Assembly: GCF_000003815.2 (NCBI RefSeq)
Contig: NC_049989.1
Location: 19,809,870 to 19,873,869 of the forward strand
Source: Branchiostoma floridae
Taxonomy: Eukaryota > Chordata > Leptocardii > Amphioxiformes > Branchiostomatidae
Direction: 5' to 3'
Length of the DNA stretch: 64,000 nucleotides
Under the pieces are notes generated by a model, which saw only the letters and a program-made list of their open reading frames with translations, did no database searches and was not told where the DNA came from. Made by a program: the position numbers and the translations under genes. Each line of letters opens with the position of its first letter. Positions within the stretch are counted from its first letter, which is position 1. Positions 14,379 to 53,216 of this stretch are shown here, piece by piece.

Positions 14379-17300
14379 ATGGGGCCTCTGTGGCGGCGCG
14401 TTTTTCTGTTCTCTCTGCTATGGCTTGGATTGCTATACGGGGCAGTTTCCGATGACATAGGGGGATCCATCTATTACGACCGCACTATCAGTCTGTCGGG
14501 AAGTCCGTACGACGTCACAAATGACATCATCGTCGTTGAGACGGCAACCCTGACGGTCGAGGCGGGGGTTCGGCTGCTGTTCCCGGAGGGGGTCGGCATG
14601 ACCGTGTTGGGGCGGCTGATAGCGGTGAGTGTTATGGCAGAATTTATGCATAAATTAAATGATTTAGGAATTTAGAATATGTCCATAGAGAGGAAGTCTG
14701 ATTTTTACAACGAAATTCTATTTGCAAGTTCAAATTCATGCTCAAAGGCTCAGTACAGTATGTGGTGAACAATGATATACGTTATTGTCAAATCAAATGT
14801 TGGCTATATCAAGACAAGTTGAGTTGAGTTCTTTTAAGGAAACAGAGGAAGTTTCAAAGACGAAAATTACAATATGTTTTAACATGGTTTATTGCTAGCA
14901 TGAAAAAGATGAAAGTGGCTTAACGTTCGCCCGTAAATATGTGAGGAAGTTTCGTGACGTTTTATAAACAACGCGGTTACTTTCGCCGTACATACATTTC
15001 CTGTCAAAACAAGAACTGGATTGTGCTATACAAAGCCTTCTTCACCTGAGGTGAGAAGTACACACAATTACAAGTTTACAAAACTGAAATACTAGTATAA
15101 CGATTGATTGATAATTGATGTCGATTAGTTTCTACTTAAATCTATCACCATCTTCTGCAGAGAGCAGGAAATGAAAGCCACTTGTTATGTGCACTGTCTA
15201 GCGTAAGATAAAAAAGATCGAAATGTACATTCACTACAACGTCTCGGAGCGTTTACTTATAGCAACAAAGACGTGTGGGATTTATGAAAAGTATAGATTC
15301 ATTTCTTCCTCAGATTGATATATCAAAACTTGACCACTTTCTTGCAACTTGAGCGCTGGAGCCTCGTCGACGTCGGTTTGACCGTGTGAAAGCACCTTAG
15401 GGCCTGCCGTAAATGGAAGTAACAGAAAACGAAGTAGACAATCTAAGAACTGTTCAAGGCCTAATAGAGTGTGATAACGTTATTATACAGGATTTGGGTT
15501 TTTCATTTCACCACCCAGGTGTCAGATAAAAAAAAAAATTATTATGTCACATGCAAGCGATCGAGCCCCAAAAAAGACCAGGGTCGGTAGTCTTTTTGCT
15601 AGGCTCAATCAGATAACCGGAAACAAGGCATTTTCCATGGGCCTTGTCATTCCCTGTCAGCAAAGAACAAAGTAATGAAAGGCTCGCGTTAGTTAGCAGT
15701 CAGCAATAAGTAGTTTTTTCTTGTAGTTTTTATTCTGCATACGTAGGTAACTCTGAAACAAAAGAACATCCTTCCTAAAAGAATGAAAAAAAACGTCGTA
15801 TCGCTTGCTATAACATTTATGTCGAGATTTCGATACAAAGATATTCAATGTAAACTCGAAATAAATTTAGATACTTTCTGTAACCTGTATCAGTTTTTTT
15901 TAGTTTAACGGATGAATTTTGTCCTCTAGCTTACAAGTCTTAGTCTCTCAGAAAAAAAGCGAACTCAACTATAATGCTTCAGCATGCAATAGAATTTCAA
16001 AAGTCCCATCAATGTTTAGCTTGCCTCGTTACGCCAATGAAGAAACACGTCAAGATTCACACAATAAGGGACGAACGTCAGCCTTTACTGAATTGAAAAC
16101 TAAGAGGGGTGCCTGTTGCTACCATGGCATTCATTCACAATCACAAGGGATATAATGTTGCCGGTGAAACTTTAATTAACTGCAAACATGGACGACAATC
16201 GTGTTTGTTTCATTCATAATTGACGTCTTGTTGGCCCATACGCAGGCTACAGGTAGACAGAATGTAAAGCTCCATTTCAATGAGGTACAAAGCCGGTATA
16301 AGAACCATAGTTTGCTTAATGTCGCAGTAAGAAGAGCGCAAATTTCTGTAAACACAAGAGTGGCCCTGGCAGCCATTGAAGTTAAACGAACATTAATCGA
16401 AACAATAGAACGTGCTTTTTATCATGGCTCATTAGAGTTTTATCATGGGTAATTAGAGTTCCACGAACACATACCTTTGCCATATAAATAAGGCTTATTA
16501 TGAAGAATGCCTGTTTTTGAGACCTTATAGGTCGTTGGTGTTATGGTGGTCCTGTCTTATAAATAAAATTCCTTGTTTTATCATACAGAAAATTTTCCCA
16601 AGAATGGGAGTCTTTTCTTAGCAAAGAATACAATTTTAATGTTTCCACATAAATTATTTTGATGTGACGCTAATTTGTATGACTTATGTCGAATAATGTT
16701 CTTAAACTTCATAATGCTGTAAGTAGGAAGATTCCACCATTTACCATTCTGGAATGACGATATTTTTCATTAATTAGGTCTTCGGTATTTATTTCTTTTT
16801 AGTTACATGATTGAAAAATTTGAGAGTCCTATTATGGAAGGCAGTCGGTTAATAAACGTTAACTTCCTCTTTAAATATGGAAATTGATTGTTTACTTGCA
16901 TTATTAGTATCTAATTATGTAAGTCATGACTTAGGCTTTCTATATGCCAAAAACATAACGATCCATTCACACGTCCTTTGGTTATTTCTGCTTAGAGTTA
17001 AAATTGGCACCTGCAGTTCCAACAAAGCCGCTAGGTTGCCCAAAGTTACAGCACTAACTCTGAGCTATCTACCATTTAAAAATCACCACAGCAAGTCCAG
17101 AACACGATATATCAAAAACGGCAAGTACGCCGAAATATATTCTTCTTGGCGAAGGTACATATGACGTATTTTAGAGTTCTATTCTCAATATCCGTTGTGA
17201 CTTTTTCGTCGTCCTTTACACCCTTTATCTGAGGGTGAAGAACTAACGTACGAGGGGGGTTCAATAAGTTCTTTGCCTCACCAAGAAATAACAAGCACAA

Positions 17301-20300
17301 CTCAGATTTTCAGGCACAACTTCATAGTATGAAGTCTTTTATCAATATCCTCCAAATTTCAAATCATTGGAGTCATTACTTTCCAGGCATTCGTTTTTCC
17401 TAAATTAGAAGGTAAGTGGCGAGAAAAAAGTTGTGTGAATTGTGATCAGACATGTGTGGGTCTAGTTTCCCATGCCATAAATTAACAAAAGACGTTGTCA
17501 AAATGTTTGATAATGATTCTCTTCCTATTTCAAGCAAAAAGAATTGGGTTTCTAACTTCCAGCAGCGCAAATTGACCCACACACTCAGGTCAGGTCAATT
17601 GTCCACGTTTTTTTCCTTCTCCCTCACCTAACGTTACTGGGTGTCGCCTGCAAAGTAATGATCACACTAATTTGAATTTTGGTACATATTTATGTAAGAC
17701 TTTATACTTGACATCTATGCTTCGAAATCTGAGCTGTGCTTATTTTTTCTCGGTAAAGTCGGGGACTTATTGATAACCCCACGTACATGTATAAAGTCTT
17801 ATATAAATGTGTACCAAAATTCAAATTATTGTGATCATCATGTTGCAGGCGACACCCAGTAACGTTAGGTAAGGGATAACGAAAAAAAAAGGTGGACAAT
17901 TGATCTGCAACCTGAGGTGTGAGGTCAAATTGTCTGATCACACTTCACCCTTCTTTTTCTCCCCACTTACCTTCTAATTTAGAAAAAACGAATGCCTGGA
18001 AAGTAATGACTCCAATGATTTGTAATTTGGAGGATATTGATAAAAGACTTCATACTATGAAGTTGTGCCTGAAAATCTGAGTTGTGCTTGTTATTTCTTG
18101 GTGAGGCAAAGAACTTATTGAACCCCCCTCGTAGAATATACCATGGGAATAATATTTACTATACAACAACTGGCATACTTTGTACGGGAGGGGGAGGGGT
18201 GTTTTAATCTAAACAAGCCAGGGCCAGTAAAGAAAATGATCATCTGATATTATTAATGCACACGAGGACCATATCTAAATATCGGTGGGTGAATAATACG
18301 GCACTCGAAAAGGTCAACATTATTTATATATGACGAAGGCATGTAATCGTCACGCCAGTTATAATACTTAATCACTGAAAATTTGACCCCACGTCACCAT
18401 AGAAGCAGAAATATATTACTTCCATATAGATGTAAGTATTGTTTTGGCCAATCTGTTTTTGCCATGGGCGATTTGTGGGAATATATATCAAAAACCGCTT
18501 GAAGGATTGCGATGGCTGTTGTTAGGTGAGTGGGTGGGATGTGGGATGAGTGGCGATGGTAAAGGTCGATTTTGGGCCCCCTGTTTCTTAATCTTGGTAC
18601 TGCAGCAGCACTTTTTTTGTCATATTTCTGCACCTAGACCTCCTGTGGTGTTGATCTTTTGTGGAAGGAATATGTCAAGTTGACGATTATTGGGTGTAAA
18701 TTTCGGCCTTCTTGCTGTTTACTGCGGATCTGTAGGGTCGTCTGTTTCCGGCGAAAATCTTAACGTGGTTATGTGTTGTGATCCTAATCCTTTCTACTCA
18801 CTTTATGGCCTTCTGGTGGTTCAACTTGGTACTGCATAGGACTTTCTGGTTTTGTATCTGGTTTTGGATGTCCTCTGCTGTTGATTTCTAGATGGTAGAA
18901 ATATGTTGATATAAAGGATTAAAGCAGAAGCAATGTCAACGCAGGTGTGACGCACGCTTGTGACGCATGTTTGATCAAAATTATTGCCTCTTGACTCTTG
19001 AGCAGAGACTCTGACTCTTGAGCTTGTATTGTACATTGCCCAAAATGCAGAAGTTAAAGCTTAGTTATATATATATATATATAGGTCTTGTAAGCATCTA
19101 TAAATCACTAGTAGATCAGTGATCAGGAGTCTTAAGCCTCCTGTCTTAAAGGGGTCAGTTAGGCTGTATATATGTATGATGCCAAACATCTTAGCTGTGT
19201 CCTTGTTTATGACATGGTAAGTTACTAATTACCTCCATAATAAAGGATGTTTTGTTTTTTACATGCCTGAATTTGTCAGCATAACGTAAGAACCTCTGGA
19301 TTGTGTTTACACAAGCTCTCTCGCCGGCTGGGCTTAATGACCCCCTCCCCGGGTGGCGGCAATTGTAGGGCCGGCCGCTAGGGGCTTGATTTTAGTCAGG
19401 CTACGGTAGAGAGTACCAGTTGACATTGTGCTGTAGTTGCTGCATATCTAATATGATGTTGTTCATATGGTCTAATTAAAAACTACAAGCACAGGGAAGC
19501 TTCCTACACACTCCTACAAACCATAAACAAAAGTACCCGAACACAAATGGAAACAGGAATTAGATACAAATCATGTGAATCAATACTAGATAGTTTGTAA
19601 AATGAATGATGAAAGTTTAACGACCCATGCATTTCATTATATGACACTCAGGGTGATATATGTAACTGAGGCAGAGAAAATATTGATAGATATCAATTGT
19701 GCAAATGCAGACATAGTTTGCATAATTAATTAGAAAACAATATCATTCCCCAATGACAATGGTAAAGGGTGGGAACAAGACAAAGAGATTCGGTTGAAAG
19801 ATCTGATGATTTTTGAGCTGGACAACTCTCATTAGATATGTCTTCTTTCTGTACTCATAGGAGGGCACCCCTGATGATAGAATCGTCTTCGACCGGAAGA
19901 GAAACCCTCCCGACGATCAAGCGAACAACGTGACACGTGACCACGACATCCGGTTACTCGGCCCTACCGTGTTTGAAGGACGTGTGCAGGTCAGACAGGG
20001 CGGCGTGTGGGGTTCTCTCTGTCTGCGAAATATGTGGTGGAGGAGTTCAGAAGCAACTGTAAGTAAAGTATTTGTTCACTGTTATACATTTGTTTGTATT
20101 TAGCCATTATCTAAATGAGAAAGGAATAAATGTGTCACCTATTGAATTATTTGTAGTCACCTGGGCCAAATTCACTATATACAATATTGAATTTACGAAA
20201 ATAATGTACTGTACTGATTTGGGGGGGGGGGTGCCTCGCATAAGAAAAAATTAACTTTTCATAAACACACAAAAACGTGCTGAAACTCCCGCCTGTGATG

Positions 20301-23300
20301 TGCCAAAGGTCACAACAGGTCAGAATATGCCAATACAGGGTAGCAGAAAAGAGTATTTATGCGCGACAAAGTAGTCCGATCATTCAAGGCTAGCTAGAAA
20401 GCCTTATTTTCTCAAGTAATGTGTTTATTTATTATTGCTTACTGATATTTTCAGACTCCTGGGTAGCCCGATTCACTTTTGACAAACTGATTTTCATCGG
20501 GGCCCAGGTACACATATAATGTGTAGAATCTGAAGCTTGAAAATCGTAAAGGTTTTCCAGTTCGTGTATAAATGCGGCTGATTTGTTTATTTGTTTGTTT
20601 ATTCAAATGCATTTGAAAGGGGCGGATAGGTGTGGTGATCTTTTCTTACCCAGGTACTCGGCATGAGATAAAGTCAATTTAGATCTGACCATCTATAATT
20701 AAATATTAAACAAACCTTGCATGTGACACAAAAACCAGACCAAAACAAGAGTTCGGAGACCTCATACCTGCATGAAATATTCAGTTTTTGTAAGTCTCTT
20801 GTTTTATCTTGTCTTCATGATTATGCACATTTGACTGATTATGCAAATATGGCTGTAAATCTATTTTAATGTCATTACGCAACTGCCTTTCTTGGATGAG
20901 CCGGCTGCAGTTATTTGACCACCGCAGAGCGGCGTTTCAAAGTGGACGTCAAAAGGCGATACGCAGACAGAATTCTTTTGCATATTTTTGATGTTCATTT
21001 TGAATTATAATCGTTCTTCGTATTCATCTCGTGCACGCTAATATAATAATATTTTACCTAGTCAACATGTGGCCCTTAACTATAGAAACCACTATATGCC
21101 GAAAACTATGCTCTGCTACTACAATCAGGGAACAGCAGGTGTCCTACTAGTACTAGGTTTTCTTTTAGTGAGTGAAAAGCGGACGCGAATCTGTTAGGAC
21201 AAGTGTAAGTTTGATCTAGCTGCACGAAGACTGTTGCAACATGCAATATGCTAATAAAACATTCCAGGTCAAATGTATTTTACTAATCCCATGACTGTTT
21301 GTTTCAACGCCTATTTTGAAGGTGGTCTGTCGGCAACTGGGGTTCGCAGGCGGACGGGTGGACAGCAGGTACCGGTATGGAACAGGGCGCATGGCTGTGT
21401 GTGACCTAGAGTGTCGGGGCAATGAGGACAACATCTACCAGTGCAACCACGACAACCTTGATCAGCCGCCTCAGTGTCGTGAGTTTCTTTCGCTTGATTG
21501 CATCTTGATTTTTAAAAGCAACTGCTTATCACCTCTGTGAGCAAATTTATTGTTATGCCCGGGAAAATGCTGATATTGATTTTGTCTCGTTTGCTATATT
21601 TTCTGCCCTGTCTGTTTTTCCGTAAACATGTACATTGATCAGTATTACGCATCTCAAGAACGGATAGTGCAAGCACGACGATTTTTGGTATGCGGGTTGG
21701 GGGTGGTGCCTTGACACTCAGGTTTGATTTTGGGCCTCCTGGCGTTTGAACTTGACATTGCAGGTGGCATTTTTTGTGTTTTTTGGGCACTTTTGGCGCT
21801 GTGTGTCCGGAACGATACGCGCCATTGCGACGATTTTTGGTGCATGGGTGGGGGGTTGTTGCCTGTTGCCTAGGATAGACTTTGGGCCTTGTCGCGTTTG
21901 AACTTGACACGGCAGGTCGAATTTTGTGTCCGGGAGGGGTATTTCCGGAGTTATATCTTCTGAACGGATGGTGCGGGCGCGATGATATTTGGCACATGTG
22001 TTGGCGGTGGCTGAATAATTCTCAATTTTGATTTTGGTGCCCTTGGTGCTTGAACTTGACATTCCAGGTTACCTTTTGTGCGGGCACGGTGCGTGCGCTG
22101 TATCTCCGGATTACAAGGTGCCGTTGTGTTGCTATTTGTTACGTGGATTGTTGCTGGTGTCCTGGTGGTCAGGTTTGATTTTGGGCCTCCTAGTGCTTGA
22201 ACTTGATACTGTAGGTTGACCCTGTTTTCGTGTGGTTGGGGCATCCCCCCAATATCTGCTTGGTTGTAAAAACAGGTGACGGCTGGGTTTGGGTTGATTG
22301 ATAGGTCTTTAAGCTTACGTGTAGAAGCGTCATCTGTTTTTGCACTGGCTTCTGCCACCTTCAATGTATCAGGTTACTTTGTATCAATAGTGTTTCCAGC
22401 CAGATGATGTACTAGTTCAGTTCAGTTTGTACTAGTATCTGTTGCTGTTAGGTACAATTTGAGTTTGTTTCTTAGTCTTTGTGGTTTTTTGAAAGCTGTT
22501 TAGTACTGAGTTTAAAGTTCTGGTACAAGTTCCTTTACCCTGTTTGGCAATCAGAAGAAGATACACTTTCTAAAGTGGAAGAGAATGTATAGAGCTTGAG
22601 TGTAAGAGAAAGGTATGTCTATTATCTTCCTGTGTTTCTTGTTGTTTCTTTGGGGATGCCATTTCCGTATTGTATGCAGGTAATTTGTAGTTTGGGGCTA
22701 GTCATGTTCGCTTGATTTTTGGGCCTGCTTAAGCTATAGTACATACAGGGTCAAGAGGTAGAAGCTTTGTTCTGTTTTAAATTTGGTATCGTTTGTTGCA
22801 TTTTGTCACTGCAAAAATACGATGAAATTGTTTTCCCCCTCTAAGCAACTGCTCATTGATTTTGGGGGTTATTTGCTGGGTGTTTACTCTGACTACAACA
22901 GCTTTCTGAACTTTTTAACCCTCAAACCACCGTAGCTTTTTTGTGACGTAGATTACCGTATGGGGTCAAAACTGACCCCAAAACGTTTTTTACAGATACA
23001 GTTTTTTTGTGTGACTCTTTTTGTGATTTGTATGTATGTATAGTTTCATTAATCTATGTGGGACAGCCTGACATGATTAGGTGAGAATACTTCTAGCTCA
23101 TTATAATAATTTATGCAAAAGATCATGAGGACCACATTTTGCACCAACGCTATTCAGACGGGGAATGAGGTTTTTGATGCCTGTACCAACTTCAATGTCG
23201 TACAGCGCCTGAATGGCTTATGCTAGGGCCACCAAACTTGGTAACATTTTAGAAAATGTTGATATCAAACATTTTCAGTGAACAAAGTATGTTCATAATT

Positions 23301-41300: not shown

Positions 41301-44300
41301 TACATTGTATCATGTACAATTGTCCTGCAATAACCTTCTTCTTCTACATAAAGTGGAATGAGAGCTTTGAAATATTCTTTGTAAAGCCAACAGCCCGGAG
41401 GCTGTCGCAGTTACTACTGTGTGCAAAAATATTTTGTTCCAGTGTAAAGAGAGGAAACCAAGACTAAAACATCTATATCAGTGACCCAGGTGTCATCAAA
41501 CGTCATTTTGTGTATTCTACTAACCGAAATTCTACCATGTTTCAGGAATTGCAAGGCGCAGCCGTCAAGTATTGATACCTGTGAGGAAATGTGTCTATGT
41601 TCTGGTGTAGCAACAGGGAGGCGACACCCTACTGACGACAGTTTCTGCATGTGCCCTTGTGACTGTGGAAGTGGGAACATTAGCTTCACGGTATGAATAA
41701 CCTTCCTTTATGCAATGATAAATACATGTAGATGATGTGTCCATTTTCAAGTATAACCGATTCATCGTTTCTAGATCTTACACTAAAGGGAAACGATATC
41801 ATTCATTGTGGTCCCGAGTTAGCGTAGCGTTCAGGGTGTCTGGACCAAAGAGATCCTGGGCTCGAATCCCCTGACAAGGCACATGGCTTTTCAACTCACT
41901 CAGGCTTTAAAATGGGAAGGTATTATGCGAAAACGGAGAGGGTTTGGATCCGCCTTAAAACACTGTGCCCTAAACACAGTGGATAACAACCCACTGCCTC
42001 TTCGGCAATTTTTTTATCTTACGTGCAGCTTTTGTCGTTTCTTCAAAACAGCACCCAGACATTTCAGACGGAGACGGATGCAACTGCGACCTATGCCCCA
42101 ATGGTGACTTCAAAACAGTCAACAGTCAGGGACATCTACACTGCCCATGTCTCTGTCCTGATAACAGCACATCAGAACTGACCAGCAATGGGAAATGTGA
42201 CGTACGTATTGTTGTGTATCACATGCTATAATCCTAAAGTTATCTACAGTAGTATGAGTTACTGTAGAGAGTAGATCCTACTTTTATTTGAGGTCATAGA
42301 CGTACGGATTAAAACAGGACTTGCCGTCATTCAGTGATGCCATGACGTTAAGGGTAAGACATCGTTAACTGAAAATTACTTTTTTACTGGTTTGCAGTGT
42401 TCCTGCCCCTGCCCTGACGGTAGCAGTGATGTGTTGATGAGTGACGGTAGCTGTCCGTGTAGGTGCACATGTAACAACTGCCACGAGTCGGTTCTTGGTC
42501 CTCAAGGCTGCATCTGTTCAGATAGGTGAGGTACCATCTAATCTAGCTTGATGTCAATAGTACTGTAATAAAACCCAAGAATTTCTGATACATGTATCCC
42601 CTGAAAGCAGGAGCTTTACAATTGATGCAAAATACCTTTAATACGAAAAATAATTTATCATTATGATAGGGTACTCTTCGCCATATATCTCTGAGTGCAA
42701 GTAAGAACGTTGTCTTATAATGATCAAGAGATTCCAACACCTACCTACAGATACGTAATTTCCTCATTTGTACCGGATGAAGTGCATTGGTATATCAAGG
42801 ATTCCCAGTGACATTTTCAAAATGCATGTATAAACCGCACACAGCTGTCCTGACTGTGAGAATGACGAGGAACCTGAGTGGCAAGACTGCGTCTGTAGGT
42901 GTCCACAGAAGACAGAGTGCGGGATCCCACCTACATGTGTGGTGGGGAGGATGGGGTCAGACTGCAGACAGCCAGACTGCAGGCCATGCCAAGGTACAAT
43001 CACCAGAACGTATTTTTACCGTATGATTCCAATTGCAACCTTTAGCAGGCTTTGGTTTTCTATCATGTATTAGAGTGTGATGCCTATAGCTAACTGCTGC
43101 ACTGCACTGCAACCTTTCAGGCTGCTCCGGGAATGGACTATGCACCACATCTACAGACAGCTGTCAGTCATCCTGTGTCTGCTGGCCCCAGTGGTTCGGA
43201 GACTGTTGTGAGCTACGTCGTCCTCGTCCTATTGGAGGGGACCCTCATCTCCAGACGTTGGACGGTAACGATTTACATCATTTGTCGTTCCATGGTCTCA
43301 AAACGACATGTGAATCAACGCAGATTTTCAAGTTGTGCGTAGAAGGTAAAAGTAAAGGTGACTTCTTGAGACTGTAAGGCAGTGGGTTGTTAAATACAAT
43401 GTCTAAGACACTGTAGTGGAAGGCAAATCCCATTACTCACGTTCTGGCCTCCTCTTACCTCCTCAATCGAAGTCATGTACCTCTTTTACACTGAGTGGTG
43501 AAAGGAAATTACTACAGATTGCCTTAAGCAAGGACACCACTTTGGACTCGACCCCATGTTCTGGATCTATCACCCCAACAGTACGCAAACAAGACGCGTT
43601 GTTCACACAAGAATGGTTTTCTGATGATCACGTAGTACATATCAATCAATGCCTGAATTGCCGCCACGTACACAATAAGTAAATTCTCTAAGGGAAATAG
43701 TATATATAAAGTATGTAACTTTGTAGCTATCCCTATTACTGCTTTCGTCCTCCCAGAACCTTAACCCCCCGTTTTACATAATTCACCATCCGTTAGAGGT
43801 CATATCTTCAAAAATTCTTTCTGATAATGCCAATAATCATTTGATGCATCAGGGATCTCCTACGACTACCATGGCATTGGTGAATTCTGGGACTGTAAGA
43901 GCGTGCCCAATGACTTCGGCGTACAGACCCGGATGTATGCGTACGAGAGGGCTTCTCTGATAGGTGGAGTTGCAGTAAAGGCAGGGCATAGTGTTGTCAC
44001 TTTGATGACATTACCGAATACAACGGAAAAGGACGTTCCTTCTATGAGGTAACCTTTTGCATGTACTGGCAGGTTGCTATTGATCGTATTCTGTTGACAT
44101 TTACCGTTAACGTTGTTTAAAATTTTTACTAGCGATTTATAAGACAACAAATGTTCCCAAATGCCTTTGATTGTGGCTGTCCTCAAACACGTGACCCAAG
44201 AGCTTTCAGCTCTGGGCAAAATACCCTACCCATATGCCACGCCGACGCTATCTATCTATCATTTGGTCACTTTAGGATTGATGGTGAACTGTGTCAACTT

Positions 44301-47300
44301 TCTGTCGGAGAGAAGTATCTTCTCAACAACGGAACAATACATCTGCTTGCTCAGCAACCCTCTACAAACGCTACGGAGTCAGGGGCTGTTATCATCGTCT
44401 CTATCACCTTTGCATCAGGTGAGGTTGTGTCCCTTCAATTAGAACACGTCTATGTGCTTAGTCGAGCTAATGAAATGTGTAGAAACCTATCCAGTACCTA
44501 TTATATGATTCTATGCAGTCATTCTTTTCAGTCTACGTTTTTCATAGTGAGACTGTGTTTTAGCGGTGTTTTTGTCAACATTTCTGCTATTGACATTAGG
44601 ATATATTTGTATATTCTAGACACATGAACATAATTAACATAGAATTGGATCAAAAGTCCTAGAATATAACCCCACACAATAGGCAGACGCAGGAAGTGTA
44701 AGGTAAGAGTTGGTATAACTTAACTTATTTACGGGAATATACTGTTATTGGTCTGTCAATTAACTTGTGTTTTCAGAGTTGTTTATTTTTCATAAGCAAT
44801 TTTCCCTATGTGCTATTTGATAATGGCAGTGGTTTGCAATGGTATCGATTTTGAATACTACTACTACTACTACAACCATCGTTTTTCTTCTCAAATATAA
44901 CAGGAGCAACTGTGTCATTTGACGTCCGGTACTCACCAAAGATGGGCCGGCAGTTTGTAAACATTCTGTTCAGCCCCACTGCCACGTTCAAGGGCACAAC
45001 GGAGGGGCTGTGCGGGCTCATGGATGACGATGATGCCAATGACTTCACTGGTCCGGGCGGCACTGTGTACAACGTCAACGACTCTTCGGTATTTGCTGAA
45101 ACCTGTAAGTCGTGATATATAAAATAATATGTCATAGAATGAAGAGTATGGCTCCGAATCACCTTTTTTTATTCAATTGTCAAAATATCTTATTCAGCGC
45201 AAAGGGATACTGTTTTTCCAACAATTTTGAACAGTTTTATAAACGTGAGTAAGCAATAGTATACTATTACATGTACTCATCAGACTTAAGAGTCACTTGT
45301 TGATTTATAGGGCGTATAAATCAAACTCACTACGGCTCTGGTCTGATGGGGTCCTGGTCATGGAACTCTTCTAACTTCCATCCTGATGATGTCATGGATC
45401 CTGCCTACTCTGACCCGGCACACCGCCCTTCTGTGGGCATAGATGGGCTGACACAGGAGCAAAAGGAAGTAAGTTGGCTGATCTGACGACTGCTCCTGAT
45501 CTTTTTTCTAATATCTTTAAGTACTAGTAGACCTAATCTCCAAGCAGATCCTACGGTGCCATAATATAGTATCAAAGGCAAGCTGGCCAAGGAGTATAGC
45601 CAGCCAAGGGAGTCAAACGTTGGGTTTGATACTATATTACGCCACCGTGGATCTGCTTGGAGATTATAGTAGACCCACAATTTGAGTATTGCAACACCTT
45701 GCCCTGGTATAAACGTTATAAACAATAGACTATCGATGTCGGTGGATAACACACAATACATAATATCTTGTTCGTTTCTTGTCTTTCAGAAAGCTGAAGA
45801 GATGTGCATCGCTCTCGGGTTGACCGGCATTCTGCTGAATGAATGCATCTTTGACGTGTCGATCACCAATGACACAACCTTCACTGAGCAGGAGGCTTTT
45901 AAAGGTATAAATTTAGCTTTCTTGCTATTCAGTACTGGTTTTGCAAGCAATGATGATGGTTTCTTCACTTTTCCTAGCCTGGTATCCAGCCGTAATATAG
46001 CTCCCGAGTCTTTTTGGGCCTCTTCGCAATTAGTAATAGGGAGCTATATCACGGCTGGATACCAGGCTACACTTTTCCAGCAGTTAGACAGCTAACTGAA
46101 AATTTCTCTTTAACATTTTAATAGGTTGTTTTCTTGTAAAAACAATTACAATGCAATCCCTAGCGTATTTCCACACACAATTATCACAAACTAATACGTG
46201 TACCATCGCAGGTTGCCCAAACCAGTGTTCAGGTAGGGGTCGCTGTGTAAACGGAACCTGTGACTGCATAACGGGCTGGTCTGGTGAAGACTGTAACCAT
46301 GGAAACTGCACAGACTGCTCCGAGGATCACGGCAGGTGTGAGCTGGGGTTCTGTAGGTGTGAGCCCGGATGGGAGGGAGCAGCCTGTGATCAACAAGGTA
46401 ATGTGTAAATGCTTTATGAATGGCGCTTAGAATACATTGAACTAAAAGGACATTCAATACACATAGTAATTCATGTTTATTACTTTGTATAACTAATGCG
46501 AATGTACCATAGTGCTGACGTGGTCTTTTCTGTTTCATCCATTGTAGCTACATGCGACGCCCTACGAAACTGTACCAGCAAGGACCACGGGATCTGCATA
46601 GGCACAAATGTCTGCTGGTGTAAACCAGGCTACATCGGTAAGTCAACATGATGACAGCTTATGATTTTTATGAATGAAGACTACTTTTATGTGAAGAATG
46701 GAAACTAACCCAAATTTTCATGGAATGAACCCATTATTTGCAATTTCCGGGACTTGACATTACAGCCACACGACGTCGGCATTGGGTCTCAAGGGCCATA
46801 TAGCCTTTATCACACCCCGTCTCTATTCAATTTGCGCAGAGGTTATCTCCTTTCTTTACTTCTTTTGCAAAGAGATCCTGCTCTGAATATAGTATTGTGA
46901 CTTTGTGAGGCAAAAAGGAATGTCCTAGAGGCTCTATGTGAGAATTTTGAGAAACTTATGAATTGTGATTAAGTGTTGGCCACGAAAAGTTTCATCTCCA
47001 CTGATAATGTCATTTACACATACATACTGATGGACTTGGTACATTTATGACATCTTCATCAGATTCTATGTATTCAAATTTTCTTATGTGAACTTATAGC
47101 TATTCGAGTATATAATTAGTATTCGAGGCTACTGTTAAAGACAACATGGTTCACTACTTCTTATCGTCAACATCTGTATTACCTAGGTGAAGACTGCAGC
47201 AAGGTACCCACGTGCGGAAACGTTGCTAACTGCACAGACCACGGAGTTTGTGTAGACTACGACACCTGTCTGTGTGATAAGCAGTGGACAGGTGACAAGT

Positions 47301-50300
47301 GTGACCAGTTCTCGTGTGCAGCATTGGATCACTGCTCTGGTAAGTTGGACTCATCACATATTTCTTTCCTAGTTTTACATGAAACCCATTTCTGTAGCCC
47401 TGTGCCACAACGCGTTGCAGCAGGGGGGCTAGTCTATCCACTGATAGTGGTCTGTGTGTTCAATTGCAACTACACTCTTATCCAAATGATGAGTGCTAGT
47501 ATAGACAGAGAAAGCGATAATTGGAAACGCTTAAATTATTTCCTAATGGAAAAACATAATTTTACACATAGGACACGGCCGCTGTGTGGACATAGACGTC
47601 TGCTACTGTGAGCAGGGCTGGACGGGTAGCTCCTGTGTCACACCCGACTGTCCTGCTGTCAACCAGTGCTCCCGCCAAGGAGACTGCATCGGTCCGAACA
47701 CCTGCCGGTGTTACAGTGGGTATCAAGGTCTGGACTGCAGTCAGGTTCAAAGCTGTCCTGAGTTGCAAGAATGCAACGAAAATGGTGCTTGCGTCATCAG
47801 TTCTGGTGGGCAAAAGGAATGCCGGTATGTCTTCCTTAAGCAATAAAGTACACTCATAAATGTCGCTGTTAGAGAAACTACAACATGCTTGCTGATGTAC
47901 GTTTAAATATCATTATATATTGTATAACACATATCCACTATCATTAGTTTCTGCCGCTAAACATGTCTCCTGTTATGCTTGTCTATGTTGGTTAAAGTGA
48001 TTTTGAATCAGAGTTTAGACTCAAAAACATTTCGACATACTCCAGTCTTTGTCAAGGAAAAGGCATCCAGAAAGAAATCTACTTTTAATCCAAAATTTTG
48101 TTAGGTCCAATTTTTCCAGAAGTTAAGGACCAGCTCCGATTGAGATTATTTTTATGTTACAGCTGCTTTTCAGGGTTCAGCGGTGCAAGCTGTGATCACC
48201 CAGACTGCACTGAACAGAATAACTGCACTAACCACGGCAGCTGCATAGAGCCCAACCTGTGTCAGTGTGACAGTGGGTACACCGGAAATGACTGCGCCAG
48301 CTTCTCTTGTGAAGCATTGCTCTACTGCTCAGGTGAGTGCTGATGGGTTACCGTGCATCAATGTATGGTAGTCCTATCTGTAACATGTTTTTCAACTGAC
48401 TTACGTCACTCTGGAACATCATCTCTTCACGCCACTCGCACTGCCACCACGGCTGCCTCCTTCCAAACGCTACTCTGGGACTGTATAGGAGACCTTTCAG
48501 AGCGCGCATTAAACGTGAAATCTTGCTGATGGCAATGATAAGAGGGCTGTAGATAATGTTATAGACCATATAATTATATGTTATTAGCATTCCATATCAA
48601 TGTATTAGTGAGTGGTTTGTACAAATTCCAGCTTTTTCAGCAAGGCTAGCCCTATGTACATGTGTTTTAATTATCTCAAATGTTGTTTAAATGCTTGTTT
48701 AGGCAACGGACGATGCGCTGGATTCGACACATGTAGCTGTGATCCTGGCTGGTCAGGTGGCTCTTGTAACATTGCGAACTGCAGCAGCAAGAGCGATTGC
48801 TCCAGCCAAGGCAACTGTGTCGCCCCCAACACATGCGAATGCTTCCCTGGGTTCCAAGGGGACGACTGCAGTGAAGAGAACTTGCCAAATGAGAACCCAC
48901 CCATATTTCAGCAGGACATATACGCTATCACAATACCCGAAAATCAGCCGGTCGGTACGGCAATAGTAACAGTGCTTGCAAATGATACTGACAGTGGACG
49001 TAACGGTGAGGTCAGGTACAGGCTTGTCCAAACAGGTTTGGATGATGAAAGCTTTACGGTACATCCTACTTTAGGAGTTATAACTTCAGCCGTTGAGTTT
49101 GACTTTGAATCGTTGGAGCGCGATTCTTTTAGTCTCATTGTCGAAGCATTAGACCATGGGGTACCGACACTTACGGGAACAGCCACATTAATCATAAATG
49201 TAACGGACCAGAATGACAACAAACCGGTCATCAACATTCCTCCTAACACTGAGTATAACCTTCAAACCACCACCCCTGTCGGCTTTCACGTGACTACTGT
49301 CCAAGCCTCTGATGCTGACAGGTCCTATGATAACTCCAGAATCACCTACGGAATCGCAAGTGTCAGCCCCCTTGTTTCAATAGATGCCACAAACGGCAGT
49401 ATAACCGTTAGGAGCGCCTTGGTAAGTGGTACCCACATTGTGAGGATCAGTGCATCAGACCATGGTTCACCACCAAAAACAGACGAAAGAAGTATCCGTA
49501 TGATTGTGACAAATGTAAGCACCAACACAGCTCCGCAGTGTCCAGAAGATCAAAGTCTTGAGATTTCTTCTCGCAATCTTACAGCAGGGTTAACAGTTGC
49601 AACCATAGAAGCAGATGATCACGACAACGGTGCAAACGGTGACGTTTCCTACAGCTTTAAGTCCAAAACAGGAGAATGGGCAAGCCTATTCAGCATTGAC
49701 CCGTCAACTGGTCGCATCTACGTTGATACTGATTCAGTCCCGCAGTTTAGCGACCCTTTCTCAGCTGTCTCAATGACAGTTGAAGTCAGAGACAACGCCG
49801 TGGATTCCATGTCCTGTGAAACAAATGTCGTAGTGATAATAACGTCTCCTGGGTTCAGCGGAACCGTGCCAGATAACGTATTCCCGACAACAACGCCGCT
49901 AGCCACGACATCTGATCCACAAACGACACCTTTCGATAGGTCTACCGCAGGTTATACCACGCAGCCAGACATCACGACAGAGGAATTGGAAAACTCTACC
50001 GCCCTTCCTACAACAGAAAGAGCAACTACAGAGGGTAAGAGCGAATTCCTTCAATAACTTCTGAATCAATAGTGTAGAAGATATGATCCACAAGATAACA
50101 AAACAGTTACACGTAGTCGTAGTTATGTGTTACTCAATATATTTTGTATTTCTCTCCCAAGGCCTTTGTAATAGCCACGGCTAGTTGGACGACCTTGGCT
50201 GCTTGTAATGCGAAACAAATAGATACATGTAAATACATAAAATAGTTGCAAGACTAGAACTTTTCCTTTACTAGGTTCATATGCATTGACCATATCACAT

Positions 50301-52780
50301 GTTGTTAATATCAGCTGTTGATATTGTATTAATTTCCGTACACATCCTCTCCACCTAGATCTGCCTGTGGTAGTGGAAGCACGTTCGTTCAGTGGCATGG
50401 TGAAAATAGTGAATCGGGATTGGAAGGAGGAACTGAGAGATAGAACATCTGATGAGTTCAAGGCTTTGGCTGCGGAAGTCGAGCAAGGGGTTAGTAGAGA
50501 ATTTAGAAAAATGACATCTATCCATTGTCATTGTCTTCCCCTGTTTTCTAATTGTTTTTTATTTAATAAAAAAGCTCATTCAATCCCAGAGTGTATGTTT
50601 TGTTCTATAGCTGGATGATGTGTTCGGCCATAGCGACCTCGGGGATACATACGACTCTGTTGACGTTACCAGATTTTCGTAAGTTAGTTCATATCTTTAT
50701 TTATTTCTGTCATTTATACCCAGAGTAGTCCACTCAGTGGTATACACTACTTGTGCAAACAGAAAATTACAAACAATAAATGAAATTAATAAATAACAAT
50801 AGTAATAAAACTGATGTAAACAATGATAATAACAAATGAATGCTACTAATGATAACAATATTGATACAAATCATGAATGAATGATAATGATCATAATGAT
50901 AATAAAACTAAATCAAAACAACAACAATGATAATAAAATTTTACCTTCTATCCCTGTATGATTTCTTTCTGTATGTATTAGACACGCGCATTGTATTTGA
51001 AAATAATCAAAAACAACAACAATTGGTAAACGCTTTCTTACCCACTTGGCATAGCAGCAGCATCGTTTAATTCACAGTAGTTTGAAAACCCAAAAGTGCT
51101 GTCGTAAACCTCCGTCTTTATTTATCTATCTATTTATCCGTCTTTATGCAACGGCATTCAACGTCTGTTCTAAGATTCTGCTTCGTACGTTTGTCGATTC
51201 AGTCCCGGAAGCATCAATGTGGAGTTCATGGTGCGTTTCAAAGCACCCGTTTCCAACGATACCGTCCTGGCTGTGTTGTCTGGGAAGACAAACATTGGTG
51301 ATCTGGAGATAGATGACACAGTCACCAGCATCACAGGTATGTCCACTCTTCTCACTGAGCCTTTATGTATAGTTAAAAGTTAAAGATGCCCGACATCTGT
51401 AACAGATGCTTAGGGTTGGCGCCCATCTCCATTTCTGTAGCCCTTGGGCCACATATTTGTGCAAGGCATTACAACAGGGGGCTGGTCCGTTGGTAGTGAT
51501 GTGTGTTTAACTCCCCTACCCTTCCTCATTGATACTGAGTGCTAAGCAGAGAAAGCAGCAAGTACCATTTTTAAAGTCTTTGGAATGACTCGGCCGGGAT
51601 CGAACCCACGACCTACTGAATGCAAGGCGAATACTCTATCCACTCGTTTAATGCCCTTTTGTTGTATATTTGATAAATCAATGCGGTATATATGTACTAA
51701 CTGTTGTCTCTTTCTAGTATGCTATATAGCGAAGGGTGTTTAATTGGCTTTACTGATATTGATTTTGAATATACAATTGCGGATGGTAACTAATTTCTTA
51801 TGAATATATTTAAGTGATATTGAAATCAATATTGATGGACGATATTAAAATGTCTTTAACAGTACAGGGTCTTATAAACATGAATGTTATATTTCTCCTC
51901 TTATTCAACGTCTTTATGTGTCCTTGTGTTATTTCCAGGGGTAACTGAAGATAAACACAATGCAGGTAAGCATATTGTTTTCGTTGTTGATCGCCCATGG
52001 ACTTTTTATGTTGAAAGTTTCAAATGAGCAGGAAAATGAGATATTATACAACAAGGTTCTAAAGTAACTGTTTCAGCCAATCACAAGACTTTTGTAGAGA
52101 TGAGTGCATTGCTATAAAAGACTAACCATTTATAGTATACTCTTTATAATTGCTGTGGAGGTGGAAGGAGGACCTACTTGTTCAATGTAACATTTATAAA
52201 CATGGTACTGCCAGCGGAGACTGGTTAAGTTTGGTTACATTGGTTTTCCTACATTGATAATGACTAATCACCATACTACACAGGCCCACAAGGCAATGAA
52301 TAAAAGGCAGTCGCAACAAGATTTTAGCTCTAAAAATAAACATTTCTTTTTTTCAGCATGGTACAACGACCCGATTTACATCTCAGTCATCTGTGTCGGA
52401 GCTGCAGTCTTCGTCACAGTTATTGTAGTACTTGTGATTTGCTGTGCTACAAAGGTAAGGAAACAGTCGGGAAATCAAGACGTGAATGATAACTAGTACA
52501 CATGCACAATAAAATGCTAACATTAGTTCTGTCACGAGAAAACCTAACAAGAACAGAACAGGCAAAGTCCTAAATTTGTATGTATAGGTAATATGACTTT
52601 ATTGTTAACCAAACTATCCCACTATTTTTCAATTGACAGAGCCGTCGCAAGCCCACGCCAAGGCGCAAGCAATGGCCTTCAGAAAGAGTACAACAGAGCA
52701 TGCTGATTCCACGAGCGAAGCTCTCGCGAGAACCTGCGAGACAGATGTACCAGAACCCTGTGTACAGCGTCAACGAATGA
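14379..52780 (+). CDS. Giant Anakonda/Bark-like multidomain membrane protein (44 exons, internal TAG)
   Basis: Exons: 14379-14624, 19861-20058, 21322-21478, 24887-27652, 29383-32046, 32203-33015, 33445-33545, 33826-33951, 34222-34330, 34446-34624, 34859-35062, 35504-35605, 35977-36253, 36736-36933, 37155-37371, 37625-37799, 37954-38115, 38522-38703, 38956-39085, 39354-39512, 39985-40150, 40834-41074, 41546-41690, 42052-42201, 42398-42525, 42845-42993, 43121-43264, 43853-44048, 44276-44418, 44904-45104, 45311-45468, 45790-45904, 46212-46397, 46548-46637, 47187-47339, 47572-47824, 48163-48332, 48703-50034, 50359-50489, 50611-50678, 51203-51336, 51939-51965, 52357-52454, 52640-52780. The sum is 13,884 bp (4,628 codons) with every phase matching, so it reads as one gene. 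Order: signal peptide, three SRCR/beta-helix/CUB repeats, C-type lectin, EGF, PSI-like, unknown triplicated domain, Cys-rich block, VWD, EGFs, three cadherins, SEA, membrane span, tail. The triple repeat plus lectin matches Drosophila Anakonda/Bark beetle, a tricellular septate-junction protein. TAG at 30858 (codon 1615) interrupts the frame. Junction or barrier adhesion is the likely role, inferred from architecture only. Confidence 0.85.
14625..19860 (+). other. Intron 1 of the giant gene (5.2 kb)
   Basis: No exon recognised on either strand. It contains the foldback transposon at 17251-18131, a TA dinucleotide run near 19068-19082, and a GC-rich patch at about 19320-19400 that resembles a patch at 3200-3270 (both include GGCCCGCCGCTAGG-like sequence), a dispersed repeat. 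Confidence 0.55.
17251..18131. mobile_element. 881-bp TA-flanked foldback transposon (Tc1/mariner-type, non-autonomous)
   Basis: The ends are CGAGGGGGGTTCAATAAG and its exact reverse complement, directly flanked by TA on both sides as expected for a TA target duplication. The outer arms are inverted repeats of about 180 bp. A second inverted pair of about 100 bp lies inside (near 17610-17705 and 17780-17880, including CACCCAGTAACGTTAGG), so nearly the whole element can fold on itself. No transposase is encoded. Confidence 0.85.
20059..21321 (+). other. Intron 2 of the giant gene
   Basis: Splits the first SRCR domain. No coding signal is seen. A short GGGTAGCCC...GGGGCCCA motif near 20460-20515 also occurs near 1840-1890, indicating a dispersed repeat. 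Confidence 0.45.
21650..22220. repeat. Diverged tandem repeats of about 130-180 bp
   Basis: About four units each contain a GATTTTTGG(T/C) block, a G-rich block (GGGTTGGGGGTGG type), then GATTTTGGGCCTCCT and TTTGAACTTGACATTGCAGG. Open frames across it are by-products of the repeat. A weaker relative lies near 18470-18860. Confidence 0.7.
22919..23882. mobile_element. 964-bp piggyBac-type non-autonomous element
   Basis: TTAA lies on both sides (22915-22918 and 23883-23886). The ends are CCCTCAAACCACCGTA and its exact reverse complement. A second inverted match, TGGGGTCAAAACTGACCCCA-like, lies just inside both ends. TTAA target duplication with CCCT-type ends is the hallmark of the piggyBac superfamily. 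No transposase frame is seen, so it is a MITE or deletion derivative. Confidence 0.88.
27653..29382 (+). other. Intron 4 of the giant gene, mostly one foldback element
   Basis: The donor GCAG/GTAAGA at 27653 ends exon 4. Nearly the whole intron is the foldback element at 27691-29204. The open frame running on from exon 4 into Glu-Arg-Lys-Gly repeats is only translation of its 10-bp repeat. Confidence 0.8.
27691..29204. mobile_element. 1.5-kb foldback element with 10-bp tandem repeats in both arms
   Basis: The left arm carries 13 units of AAAAGGAACG (27711-27840). The right arm carries 10 units of the reverse complement (29081-29180). The match continues outside the repeats (TACCGAAAGTGCG against CGCACTTCCGGTA) and inside (GTATGAAGCAAACTT at 27842 against AATTTGCTTCATAC ending 29079). 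So these are true terminal inverted repeats with a minisatellite embedded in each. The 1.2-kb centre encodes nothing recognisable. The architecture resembles Drosophila FB elements. Confidence 0.82.
30720..33015 (+). other. Giant gene, repeat 3: SRCR, beta-helix, CUB, NFWG motif
   Basis: About codons 1570-2281, in exons 5 and 6. It starts IGGRLYEAMHLTKVGSPYTI and VTVEPGV, immediately followed by the in-frame TAG. A canonical SRCR lies at about 30978-31290 (GRVEILHNNQWGAIC, VVCRELGFGAA). A beta-helix stretch follows, then a canonical CUB at about 31711-32046 (CGTPITFSNSSGTFASPNF, YCEWVIRAP, VKVYDG). Exon 6 is beta-helix ending GNFWGFDSD near 32893. Confidence 0.8.
30858..30860 (+). other. In-frame TAG inside exon 5 of the giant gene
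   Basis: TAG follows VTVEPGV. The equivalent position is Asp (GAC) in repeat 2 and Arg (CGG) in repeat 1. The exon continues in the same frame for more than 1.1 kb with intact SRCR and CUB domains, and the other 43 exons show no lesion. It would truncate the product at codon 1615 of 4,628. One substitution (for example from CAG, AAG, GAG or TGG) explains it. The cause could be an allele, a sequencing error, readthrough or editing. Confidence 0.9.
33445..34330 (+). other. Giant gene: C-type lectin-like domain (exons 7-9)
   Basis: About codons 2282-2393. It begins CPLGWKYSKQLSACYMYHSG with a tryptophan (DWLGAVHSC) typical of the second helix, and ends CGSFYPFICKRP, the usual C-terminal strand. 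The long-loop EPN/QPD and WND sugar and calcium motifs are not seen, so carbohydrate binding is doubtful. The exon 7 donor is AAG/GTCATA and the exon 9 acceptor AAAG; both are weak but keep phase. Confidence 0.78.
34446..35605 (+). other. Giant gene: EGF pair and PSI-like Cys-rich modules (exons 10-12)
   Basis: About codons 2394-2555. Exon 10 encodes two EGF-like units (CPNACSHRGRC, CICDRGWEGEDC, CGEFGTC, CRCRNGW). Exon 11 has the cysteine spacing of a plexin-semaphorin-integrin (PSI) module (CKSCAMAVGCGWCDQRQSC). Exon 12 is a short Cys-containing piece with a second partial PSI-like pattern (CLRCQDVEGCF). Confidence 0.75.
34752..34833. mobile_element. Small hairpin MITE, CCAAGCAGAGG family
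   Basis: ATTCTGCAAGCAGAGG at the left pairs with CCTCTGCTTGGAGAAT at the right. It lies in the 234-bp intron between EGF exon 10 and exon 11, leaving the acceptor only about 25 bp away. Family members are at 59929-60051 and 10582. Confidence 0.8.
35977..38115 (+). other. Giant gene: unrecognised domain in three copies, then RRRRR site
   Basis: About codons 2556-2898, exons 13-17. I see three related beta-rich units sharing an L-x-x-G-D/Q-x-I/V core followed by a strand ending in V-x-V/I. Unit 1 is LDIRIGQVLSSPQASGVLHK, unit 2 LSVGDIIVSNHSNGILEQV, unit 3 LDLETGDVVIGRKSSRLLAK. The core loosely recalls Hint/intein-type strands, but no catalytic Cys/Ser start or terminal HN/HC is seen. After unit 3, RRRRRED at 38038 onward resembles a furin-type cleavage site. 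I do not recognise the family. Confidence 0.6.
38522..41074 (+). other. Giant gene: beta-rich region of unknown family (exons 18-22)
   Basis: About codons 2899-3190. The peptide has alternating hydrophobic strands (FDITLSTSGALSAGIKLAL, IATVAVTLPLSTQGPGSIEM) with few cysteines. It ends with QSCSAECPYSDRPQYVGVTS and a charged segment (EEQQWRREEWMES). All five exons join in phase. No known domain is recognised; a repeated beta-sandwich is possible. Confidence 0.6.
40527..40700. mobile_element. 174-bp near-perfect hairpin MITE
   Basis: Arms of about 61 bp start GGAAAAACTAAACTTTACTT and are almost exact reverse complements around a 50-bp loop. The near-identity suggests recent insertion or gene conversion. 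A fragment sharing CCCAAATTTTCATG occurs near 46707. Confidence 0.85.
41546..42993 (+). other. Giant gene: CPC-type Cys-rich block (exons 23-26)
   Basis: About codons 3191-3381. Each exon carries a unit with CxC or CPC clusters: CEEMCLCSG, CMCPCDCGSG, CNCDLCPNGD, CPCLCPDN, CSCPCPDGS, CPCRCTCNNC, CVCRCPQKTEC. The pattern suggests four repeats of a small disulfide-rich module. It does not fit EGF or VWC spacing well, and I cannot name it. Confidence 0.65.
41808..42005 (+). mobile_element. tRNA-derived SINE
   Basis: The head resembles a tRNA with box A-like TTAGCGTAGCGTTCAGGG and box B-like GGGCTCGAATCCC. The body continues to a segment ending AACCCACTGCCTC. A reverse-oriented relative of the body (GGCAGTGGGTTGTTAAATAC) is near 43379. 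It is too diverged for a functional tRNA gene. It lies in the intron before exon 24. Confidence 0.65.
43121..45904 (+). other. Giant gene: von Willebrand type D domain (exons 27-32)
   Basis: About codons 3382-3700. The classic start GGDPHLQTLDG closes exon 27 and YDYHGIGEFWDC follows in exon 28. GLCGLMDDDDANDF in exon 30 is the VWD calcium/CGL signature. Exons 31-32 (GSGLMGSWSWNSSNFHPDD, MCIALGL...ECIFDVSI) fit the C-terminal tail that follows VWD in MUC4/SUSD2-type proteins. Together with the later EGF and SEA modules this half looks like a membrane mucin or matrix adhesion protein. Confidence 0.82.
45534..45666. mobile_element. Hairpin MITE, CCAAGCAGATC subfamily
   Basis: TAATCTCCAAGCAGATCCTA at the left pairs with GGATCTGCTTGGAGATTA at the right. 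Inside, a second inverted pair TATAGTATCAAA / TTTGATACTATA continues the hairpin. It lies in the intron before exon 32. Confidence 0.83.
45975..46069. mobile_element. Hairpin MITE, AGCCTGGTATCCAG family
   Basis: TAGCCTGGTATCCAGCCGT pairs with ACGGCTGGATACCAGGCTA, and the pairing continues into TATAGCTCCC / GGGAGCTATA. A related hairpin lies at 63399-63503. It is in the intron before EGF exon 33. Confidence 0.83.
46212..48872 (+). other. Giant gene: EGF-like string (exons 33 to start of 38)
   Basis: About codons 3701-4040. Tandem EGF units of the tenascin or teneurin pattern: CPNQCSGRGRCVNGTCDC, CELGFCRCEPGWEGAAC, CICIGTNVCWC-like spacing, CVDYDTCLC, CVDIDVCYC, CIGPNTCRC, CIEPNLCQC, CAGFDTCSC, CVAPNTCECFPG. 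Most lack the calcium-binding D-x-D/N-E prefix. Exon borders cut the EGF units in phase 1. Confidence 0.85.
47375..47545. mobile_element. Fragment related to the SINE body at 51385-51655
   Basis: CCCATTTCTGTAGCCCTG, followed by GCAGCAGGGGGGCTAGTC and TGAGTGCTA...AGACAGAGAAAGC, parallels the SINE at 51385-51655. The tRNA-like end is missing. Confidence 0.55.
48873..50034 (+). other. Giant gene: three cadherin repeats and Thr-rich stalk (exon 38)
   Basis: About codons 4041-4428, nearly all in one 1,332-bp exon. Cadherin motifs include PENQPVGTAIVTVLANDTDS, YRLVQTG, DQNDNKPV between repeats 1 and 2, ASDADRSYDNSRITY in repeat 2, and EADDHDNGANGDVSYSF in repeat 3. The DxNDN linker after repeat 2 is degenerate (TNVSTNTAPQCP). 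A Thr/Pro-rich stretch (TTTPLATTSDPQTT) follows, probably O-glycosylated. Confidence 0.87.
50359..51336 (+). other. Giant gene: SEA domain with autocleavage motif (exons 39-41)
   Basis: About codons 4429-4539. VVVEARSFSGMVKIVNRDW opens an SEA fold. EFKALAAEVEQGLDDVF is its helix, and FSPGSINVEFMVRFKA holds the G-S-[VI]-x-V motif at which many SEA domains cleave themselves (MUC1 type). Gly4497-Ser4498 would be the scissile pair. This predicts a two-subunit, non-covalently joined receptor. Confidence 0.83.
50740..50940. repeat. Degenerate AATGATAATAA simple repeat
   Basis: About 200 bp of imperfect AT-rich repeats with ATGATAATAA-like units, in the intron between SEA exons 40 and 41. No coding content. 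Confidence 0.6.
51385..51655 (-). mobile_element. tRNA-derived SINE, minus orientation
   Basis: The reverse complement of the right end reads GTGGATAGAGTATTCGCCTT and, further on, GTGGGTTCGATCCCGGCC, good box A and box B sequences of a tRNA-derived Pol III promoter. The body extends leftward. A body fragment recurs at 47375-47545. It lies in the intron before microexon 42. Confidence 0.72.
51939..52780 (+). other. Giant gene: microexon, membrane span and cytoplasmic tail (exons 42-44)
   Basis: Exon 42 is only 27 bp (GVTEDKHNA) and symmetrical in phase 1, so it could be skipped without a frameshift. Exon 43 encodes one membrane helix (IYISVICVGAAVFVTVIVVL). Exon 44 encodes a 46-residue basic tail ending MYQNPVYSVNE and TGA. 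YQNP fits a YxN Grb2-type SH2 site and the overlapping NPVY fits an NPxY PTB/endocytic site. Confidence 0.85.
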
Positions 52781-52798
52781 TTAGAAACATGTACATGT

Positions 52799-52804
52799 AA
52801 TAAA
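52799..52804 (+). terminator. Polyadenylation signal AATAAA, giant gene
   Basis: AATAAA lies 19 bp after the TGA. If used, the 3' UTR is only about 40 nt. A second AATAAA at 53417-53422 would give a UTR reaching the caspase 3' end. Confidence 0.5.
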
Positions 52805-53210: not shown

Positions 53211-53216
53211 TTTATT
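53211..53216 (-). terminator. Polyadenylation signal AATAAA (minus), caspase gene
   Basis: TTTATT on the plus strand, 236 bp beyond the caspase stop. Another copy is at 53058-53063. Confidence 0.4.

Follow-up and report, generated by a model that had tools for sequence, protein, structure and literature searches.

Anakonda and Bark proteins and the amphioxus locus

The original papers on Anakonda (Aka) and Bark are said to be those of Byri (2015) and Hildebrandt (2015). In flies, Aka is known as a protein of tricellular septate junctions (PMC11698045, PMC8006247), and the Drosophila protein makes homophilic contacts via its triple-repeat ectodomain (PMC11698045). Its layout is given there as signal peptide, SRCR, CUB, beta-helices, C-type-lectin-like domain (CTLD) and transmembrane domain. 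A crab member, SpBark, is described as a protein of 2,863 aa with SRCR domains at residues 106–210, 976–1082 and 1797–1914 and a CTLD at 2512–2608 (PMC6716108).

We analyzed a window of 64,000 nt from the genome of Branchiostoma floridae, in which a chain of 45 predicted exons extends over positions 14379–52780 of the plus strand. Consistent with the initial annotation, the domain content and order of its first half fit the published Aka and SpBark descriptions as far as these extend, and the head of the predicted protein is almost certainly of the Anakonda/Bark type. Shared features are the signal peptide, three SRCR domains (as in SpBark), beta-helices and CUB (as in Aka), the CTLD and a C-terminal helix. 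However, whereas the Aka and SpBark descriptions place the transmembrane helix after the CTLD, here the two are separated by ~2,140 residues comprising EGF, VWD, cadherin and SEA domains. Furthermore, CUB domains are plural in the Aka description but supported in only one repeat here, and the CTLD of SpBark lies ~255 aa from the C-terminus, whereas here it ends at residue 2393 of 4602, a difference not known to define the family. The stalk is absent from both Anakonda/Bark descriptions, the comparison with arthropods being one with descriptions alone. Head and stalk (EGF, VWD, EGF array, cadherins and SEA) are predicted to lie in one exon chain with a single transmembrane helix, an architecture that was not found described in open-licence PMC titles and abstract starts, among the matches listed. 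The features are as follows (window coordinates; E-values in parentheses).

14379..14624, +, exon 1: signal peptide (14379–14450) and start of repeat 1
19861..21478, +, exons 2–3: most of SRCR domain 1 (Pfam SRCR, 1.9e-17)
24887..27652, +, exon 4: last part of SRCR1 and beta-helix 1 (Pfam, 1e-20); repeat 2 begins here, with SRCR2 (8.2e-9) and a 129-aa insert
29383..30852, +, exon 5: beta-helix 2 (Pfam, 9.2e-18); repeat 3 begins here
30853..30909, +, 57-nt GT-AG segment with in-frame TAG at 30858–30860; alignable to repeats 1 and 2 when translated
30910..32046, +, exon 6: SRCR3 (7e-20) and CUB (2.6e-13), both by Pfam
32203..33015, +, exon 7: beta-helix region of repeat 3, by alignment to repeats 1 and 2
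33445..34330, +, exons 8–10: CTLD, without EPN, QPD or WND motif
34446..35605, +, exons 11–13: two EGF domains plus a PSI-like segment that narrowly misses the Pfam cut-off (2.2e-4)
35977..41074, +, exons 14–23: ~600 aa with no credible match in Pfam or the PDB; RRRRR at 38038–38052
41546..43264, +, exons 24–28: cysteine-rich stretch and first part of VWD, including GDPH at 43237–43248
43853..45904, +, exons 29–33: remainder of VWD (Pfam, 1.7e-7) and linker
46212..48881, +, exons 34–39 (part): EGF array (Pfam)
48882..50034, +, exon 39 (rest): cadherin repeats (Pfam, 4.7e-40, three stretches) and Thr/Ser-rich linker
50359..51336, +, exons 40–42: SEA domain (Pfam, 7.8e-17), GSINV at 51207–51221
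51939..51965, +, exon 43: 27 nt, in frame, recovered in just 4 of 10 settings
52357..52454, +, exon 44: transmembrane helix (52386–52442)
52640..52780, +, exon 45: basic cytoplasmic tail ending in NPVYSVNE; negative coding score in its frame

Gene model

The exon chain was derived with a Viterbi gene finder whose coding model was of third order and whose splice-site matrices were set by hand, with a penalty on short exons; an initial version, which produced 56 exons, many of them tiny, was superseded by the version with this penalty. The program was supplied with the start codon (ATG at 14379) and with the range in which to stop (50500–53400), and initial training used the long open frames of the window. 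With these inputs, the gene finder returned a single in-frame path of 44 exons with a stop at 52496. The last exon was added by hand, joining a strong donor at 52454 to an acceptor at 52640 and so reaching the stop at 52780 proposed in the initial annotation, an extension that we accept as good. The final model has 45 exons and, with the 57-nt segment spliced out, a CDS of 13,752 bp. The remaining 43 introns are all at least 115 bp long, the shortest being exactly 115 bp.

The exon chain is well supported. When the coding model was retrained on these exons, 43 of the 45 recurred in all 10 settings, exon 39 in six and exon 43 in four, a recurrence that is partly circular as the model had seen the forward exons. 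The same holds for the path score, which, under a model trained on the forward exons, was 1322.6 for the forward sequence versus 94.8 for the reversed sequence and 18.6, 29.6 and 19.3 for three shuffles; the reverse complement yielded no path with the gene finder. Leave-one-exon-out training is therefore the fairer test, and under it the coding score was positive and best in its own frame for 41 of the 45 exons. The exceptions were exons 28, 40, 43 and 45, with exon 28 scoring positive but better in another frame.

The locus had previously been described as 44 exons joining in phase over 13,884 bp. Its start at 14379 with a signal peptide was borne out, and the chain was recovered together with the named domains by the gene finder and Pfam, but a fully open 44-exon join is ruled out by the in-frame TAG at 30858–30860, which that description does not mention. 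The 44-exon version, in which our exons 5 and 6 are merged, as the earlier numbering of the CTLD–EGF junction (‘exons 9–10’) seems to imply, has a CDS of 13,809 bp with TAG as codon 1615. The 13,884 bp reported before exceed this by 75 bp.

Two 3' ends can be drawn. If the exon 44 donor at 52454 is unused, translation stops at 52496, followed by AATAAA at 52508; the spliced alternative carries the NPVY tail, stops at 52780 and is followed by AATAAA at 52799. The exon 45 tail is uncertain because of its negative coding score.

Repeats, CUB and CTLD of the head

The three repeats are homologous, with pairwise local alignment scores of 331, 301 and 339 where 100 shuffles of each pair gave at most 78, and Pfam detects SRCR in each of them (1.9e-17, 8.2e-9 and 7e-20). 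Beta_helix is matched by Pfam in repeats 1 and 2 only (1e-20 and 9.2e-18). The corresponding region of repeat 3 has just a sub-threshold match to the P22 tail-spike and is assigned by homology: exon 7 aligns to repeats 1 and 2 with scores of 126 and 110, whereas 300 shuffles for each comparison gave no more than 70 and 72. CUB is significant in repeat 3 only (Pfam, 2.6e-13). The 129-aa insert of repeat 2 looks CUB-like by eye, but 780 of 2,000 shuffles aligned as well to the CUB of repeat 3, and the best PDB match of the insert (0.23) was taken as chance; no CUB was seen by Pfam in repeat 1. Thus, of the triple SRCR/beta-helix/CUB repeat proposed earlier, the SRCR domains and the beta-helices stand in all three copies, the third helix by homology, whereas a CUB domain in every repeat was rejected, support being confined to repeat 3.

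Pfam detects no C-type lectin in the CTLD. Its N-terminal half matches NKG2D in the PDB, with single-copy chains starting at 6.6e-4 (the top row, 6.3e-9, adds up two copies), and its C-terminal part matches langerin at 0.07, which is the level of chance rows such as pleckstrin, although in the correct order. By these NKG2D and langerin matches, without Pfam support, the lectin domain of the initial annotation keeps its place after the repeats.

The in-frame TAG in repeat 3

The TAG is most simply avoided if the surrounding 57 nt (30853–30909) are spliced out. The segment starts with GT, ends with AG and has a length divisible by three, such that its excision would remove the TAG in frame together with 19 codons in total, presumably about one beta-helix coil. 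Its splice-site sum of 10.4 is reached by 19 of the 43 other introns of the gene and by none of 2,069 real coding positions (highest 10.2), while 108 of 12,820 synonymous-shuffle positions (<1%) reach it; this statistic was picked after the segment had been seen. An earlier, threshold version of the splice test gave 0/2,141 positions under strict and 124/2,141 under loose settings. The 57 nt appear to derive from coding sequence, since, when translated, they align to the corresponding stretch of repeats 1 and 2 with scores of 29 and 35, matched by 1 and 0 of 20,000 shuffles, respectively.

This homology also fits a locus that is otherwise as described but where a nonsense change or a sequencing error interrupts repeat 3 in the sequenced haplotype or the assembly, the normal protein reading straight through. 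That explanation, which we regard as a serious one though short of an even chance, also agrees with the 2,970 codons downstream of the TAG that are otherwise open, against ~139 stops expected by chance; any loss must be recent, and the locus is not an old pseudogene. Moreover, at 57 nt the segment is shorter than every other intron of the gene. Against a nonsense change or an error stands the in-frame splice pair, which is as good as those of real introns and rare among synonymous shuffles. On balance, we give roughly even chances to the segment being spliced out, as a young in-frame intron born from coding sequence rather than an allele or error. Retention of the 57 nt would shorten the product to 1,614 aa, leaving two full repeats and no transmembrane helix.

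One gene or two

The joined protein has an N-terminal signal peptide and one strong transmembrane helix (residues 4534–4552). Among its hydrophobic windows of at least 1.6, the C-terminal one reaches 3.22 and all others stay at or below 1.77. We consider it quite likely that head and stalk belong to a single gene. The alternative is that of two neighboring genes, or alternative ends, with a Bark-type receptor whose end would lie somewhere from the CTLD to exon 18, and a distinct VWD–EGF–cadherin–SEA receptor behind it. SpBark ends 255 aa past its CTLD (PMC6716108), and exons 13–27 contain no Pfam domain that would bridge the halves, both of which would suit two genes; by contrast, the intron between CTLD and EGF measures only 115 bp, which is too short to hold the end of one gene and the start of another, and the coding signal continues through exons 11–27, with exon 28 positive though not best in frame.

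Further signs of a second gene were sought in the region in between. If the intron after exon 18 is kept, 17 more residues are added that are hydrophobic (2.06) and end at a stop at 38169; this region (38092–38169) lies just after the RRRRR motif and could represent an alternative membrane-anchored end before the VWD half, which we regard as possible. Because of it, we lowered our confidence in a single gene slightly. No AATAAA or ATTAAA follows within 400 nt of that stop, which speaks against two genes. Read-through of exon 8 is likewise hydrophobic (2.18), and read-through reaches 1.6 in 7 of the 44 exons, including exon 44 with the true helix, versus 0/44 and 3/44 in the two wrong intron frames, a control that starts in the intron and is not fully like for like. 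None of the 10 hydrophobic windows of at least 1.9 in the three plus-strand frames of 33016–43300 is centered in an exon in its own frame. Five weak signal-peptide-like ATGs, which would favor a second start, occur on the plus strand of 33016–43264 and none on the other strand; two of the five reach a phase-matched exon, only by skipping exons, and none splices in phase into the next exon. The five ATGs and the hydrophobic read-throughs were weighed and not preferred as signs of a second gene. Overall, the single gene claimed earlier is favored by the coding signal through exons 11–27, the 115-bp intron and the one strong helix and disfavored by the exon 18 read-through, and we rate two genes as improbable.

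Stalk and candidate cleavage sites

Downstream of the first two EGF domains, exons 14–23 gave nothing credible in Pfam at E up to 10 (a Dak1 match of 0.094 for one piece was taken as chance, and the other piece had no match) and exons 13–23 gave no PDB matches at E up to 10. The cysteine-rich/VWD piece had no PDB matches at E up to 1; the Pfam VWD match (1.7e-7) begins at GDPH, a motif that occurs once in the whole protein. The EGF array comprises nine EGF_2 stretches by Pfam, or ten by eye, and fits the teneurin EGF model (1.7e-53). Ahead of the membrane lies the SEA domain, with a G-S-x-x-V site (GSINV); GSxxV-like strings occur at two other places in the protein. A PDB search with the SEA domain returned TMPRSS6 (0.0025) among its matches, with MUC1 absent.

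Three candidate cut sites can be placed by residue: RRRRR at 2873–2877, which we take to be furin-like, GDPH at 3396–3399 and GSINV at 4472–4476. VWD domains with GDPH have been reported to be cut between Asp and Pro, and some of them are without the disulphide that would hold the pieces together (PMC10880436). The SEA site of MUC1 is GSVVV, and in MUC16 a SEA site matching that of MUC1 was not found to be used (PMC4456727). Owing to the MUC16 case, the GSINV motif alone is no proof of cleavage; we nevertheless think it somewhat probable from the sequence that the SEA domain is cleaved, with GSINV as the candidate site. In a Notch chimera assay, contact-dependent proteolytic switching was seen with the SEA or SEA-like regions from dystroglycan, PCDH15 and CDHR2, whereas SEA regions without a structured neighbor, including that of MUC1, were reported to be cut constitutively, without a ligand cell (PMC6586460). 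The Thr/Ser-rich linker before the SEA domain may leave it without a structured neighbor, such that both switch-like and MUC1-like behavior would be possible.

Proposed function

If the locus is one gene, its product could be a giant type-I membrane adhesion receptor, for which, as for an adhesion or barrier role, we see about equal chances either way. By analogy with Drosophila Aka, the head would make homophilic contacts between neighboring epithelial cells, and the stalk would space it from the membrane. A tricellular-junction role would likewise be an extrapolation from insects. The precursor may be cut at RRRRR, GDPH and GSINV into subunits held together non-covalently or by disulphides, with the SEA joint serving as a tension-limited fuse or as a proteolytic switch. 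The NPVY tail, if used, would link the receptor to endocytic or PTB adaptors, which we presume to be the role of such a motif. In the most elaborate version, which we consider very unlikely as a whole, the vertex head on its self-cleaving stalk would seal three-cell contacts and release or signal under tension, and retention of the 57-nt intron would supply a secreted two-repeat form.

Instead of a junction protein, the locus might encode a pattern-recognition receptor for microbes. SpBark is described as binding bacteria and lipopolysaccharide, with the CTLD as its strongest binding part, and as reportedly promoting phagocytosis (PMC6716108). The cadherin/EGF/SEA stalk, however, resembles cell-contact receptors, and the CTLD here lacks EPN, QPD and WND, although the CTLD of SpBark is also described as lacking WND (PMC6716108); we rate an immune receptor as unlikely, while giving it some weight. 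The protein could also be mucin-like, residing at the apical membrane with the Bark head as its shed part. MUC4 contains VWD and EGF domains, and other membrane mucins contain SEA (PMC5039420). The Thr/Ser-rich linker ahead of the SEA domain would agree with this, but it is short and the tandem repeat scan found no array in it. Moreover, cadherin repeats are, to our knowledge, not a feature of mucins, and a mucin-like protein seems distinctly improbable to us.

Neighboring genes and repeats

Upstream on the plus strand (7469–11974) lie one or more genes with MAM domains (Pfam, 4.4e-33, 3.9e-7 and 1.2e-19), followed by a Thr/Ser-rich stretch without Pfam match and then by repeated NPDGYQS tyrosine motifs, perhaps a signaling tail. 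Downstream on the minus strand (54646–56809) is a caspase gene with CARD (Peptidase_C14, 1.2e-22 and 8.3e-6; CARD, 9.4e-6). Intron 4 contains an inverted pair of 10-bp tandem arrays (27694–29201), with 13.0 copies at 27709–27838 and 10.4 copies at 29080–29183; the arms, of up to 138 nt, are 94% complementary and separated by 1,169 nt, and there are several possible short target duplications, the longest of 7 bp, such that the pair resembles a foldback-type element. At 855–1050 there is another, shorter pair of inverted 10-bp tandem arrays, CCGGAATAAC and GGTTATTCCG, whose flanks match; it is built like that of intron 4 but from a different sequence. On the minus strand of intron 3 (21512–22373), long open frames display a repeating proline-/basic-rich pattern that is absent from the tandem repeat scan. 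PADLOC, Rfam and tRNA scans returned none.

Comparison with other receptors and implications

The stalk combines features of several receptor types. Dystroglycan, PCDH15, CDHR2 and CADH23 likewise have adhesion domains upstream of a juxtamembrane SEA or SEA-like domain that is a candidate proteolytic switch (PMC6586460), but here a Thr/Ser-rich linker lies between cadherins and SEA, and EGF and VWD domains and the Bark head are added. MUC4 is a membrane protein described as cut at GDPH in its VWD domain, with its EGF domains in the other subunit (PMC10880436, PMC5039420), and SUSD2 is similarly described as a membrane protein cut at GDPH; in contrast to both, the amphioxus protein has no NIDO, AMOP or sushi domain by Pfam and does have cadherins and SEA. 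The EGF array is shared with teneurins by the fit to their Pfam model, yet the transmembrane helix is C-terminal here, and Pfam detects no other teneurin domain.

If the same head sits on a cadherin/SEA stalk in another animal, one form must have lost the stalk or the other gained it. Furthermore, if the reading proposed here is true, the locus would offer a concrete candidate for two questions: how far beyond insects tricellular sealing extends, and whether adhesion and force-triggered release may be joined in one molecule.
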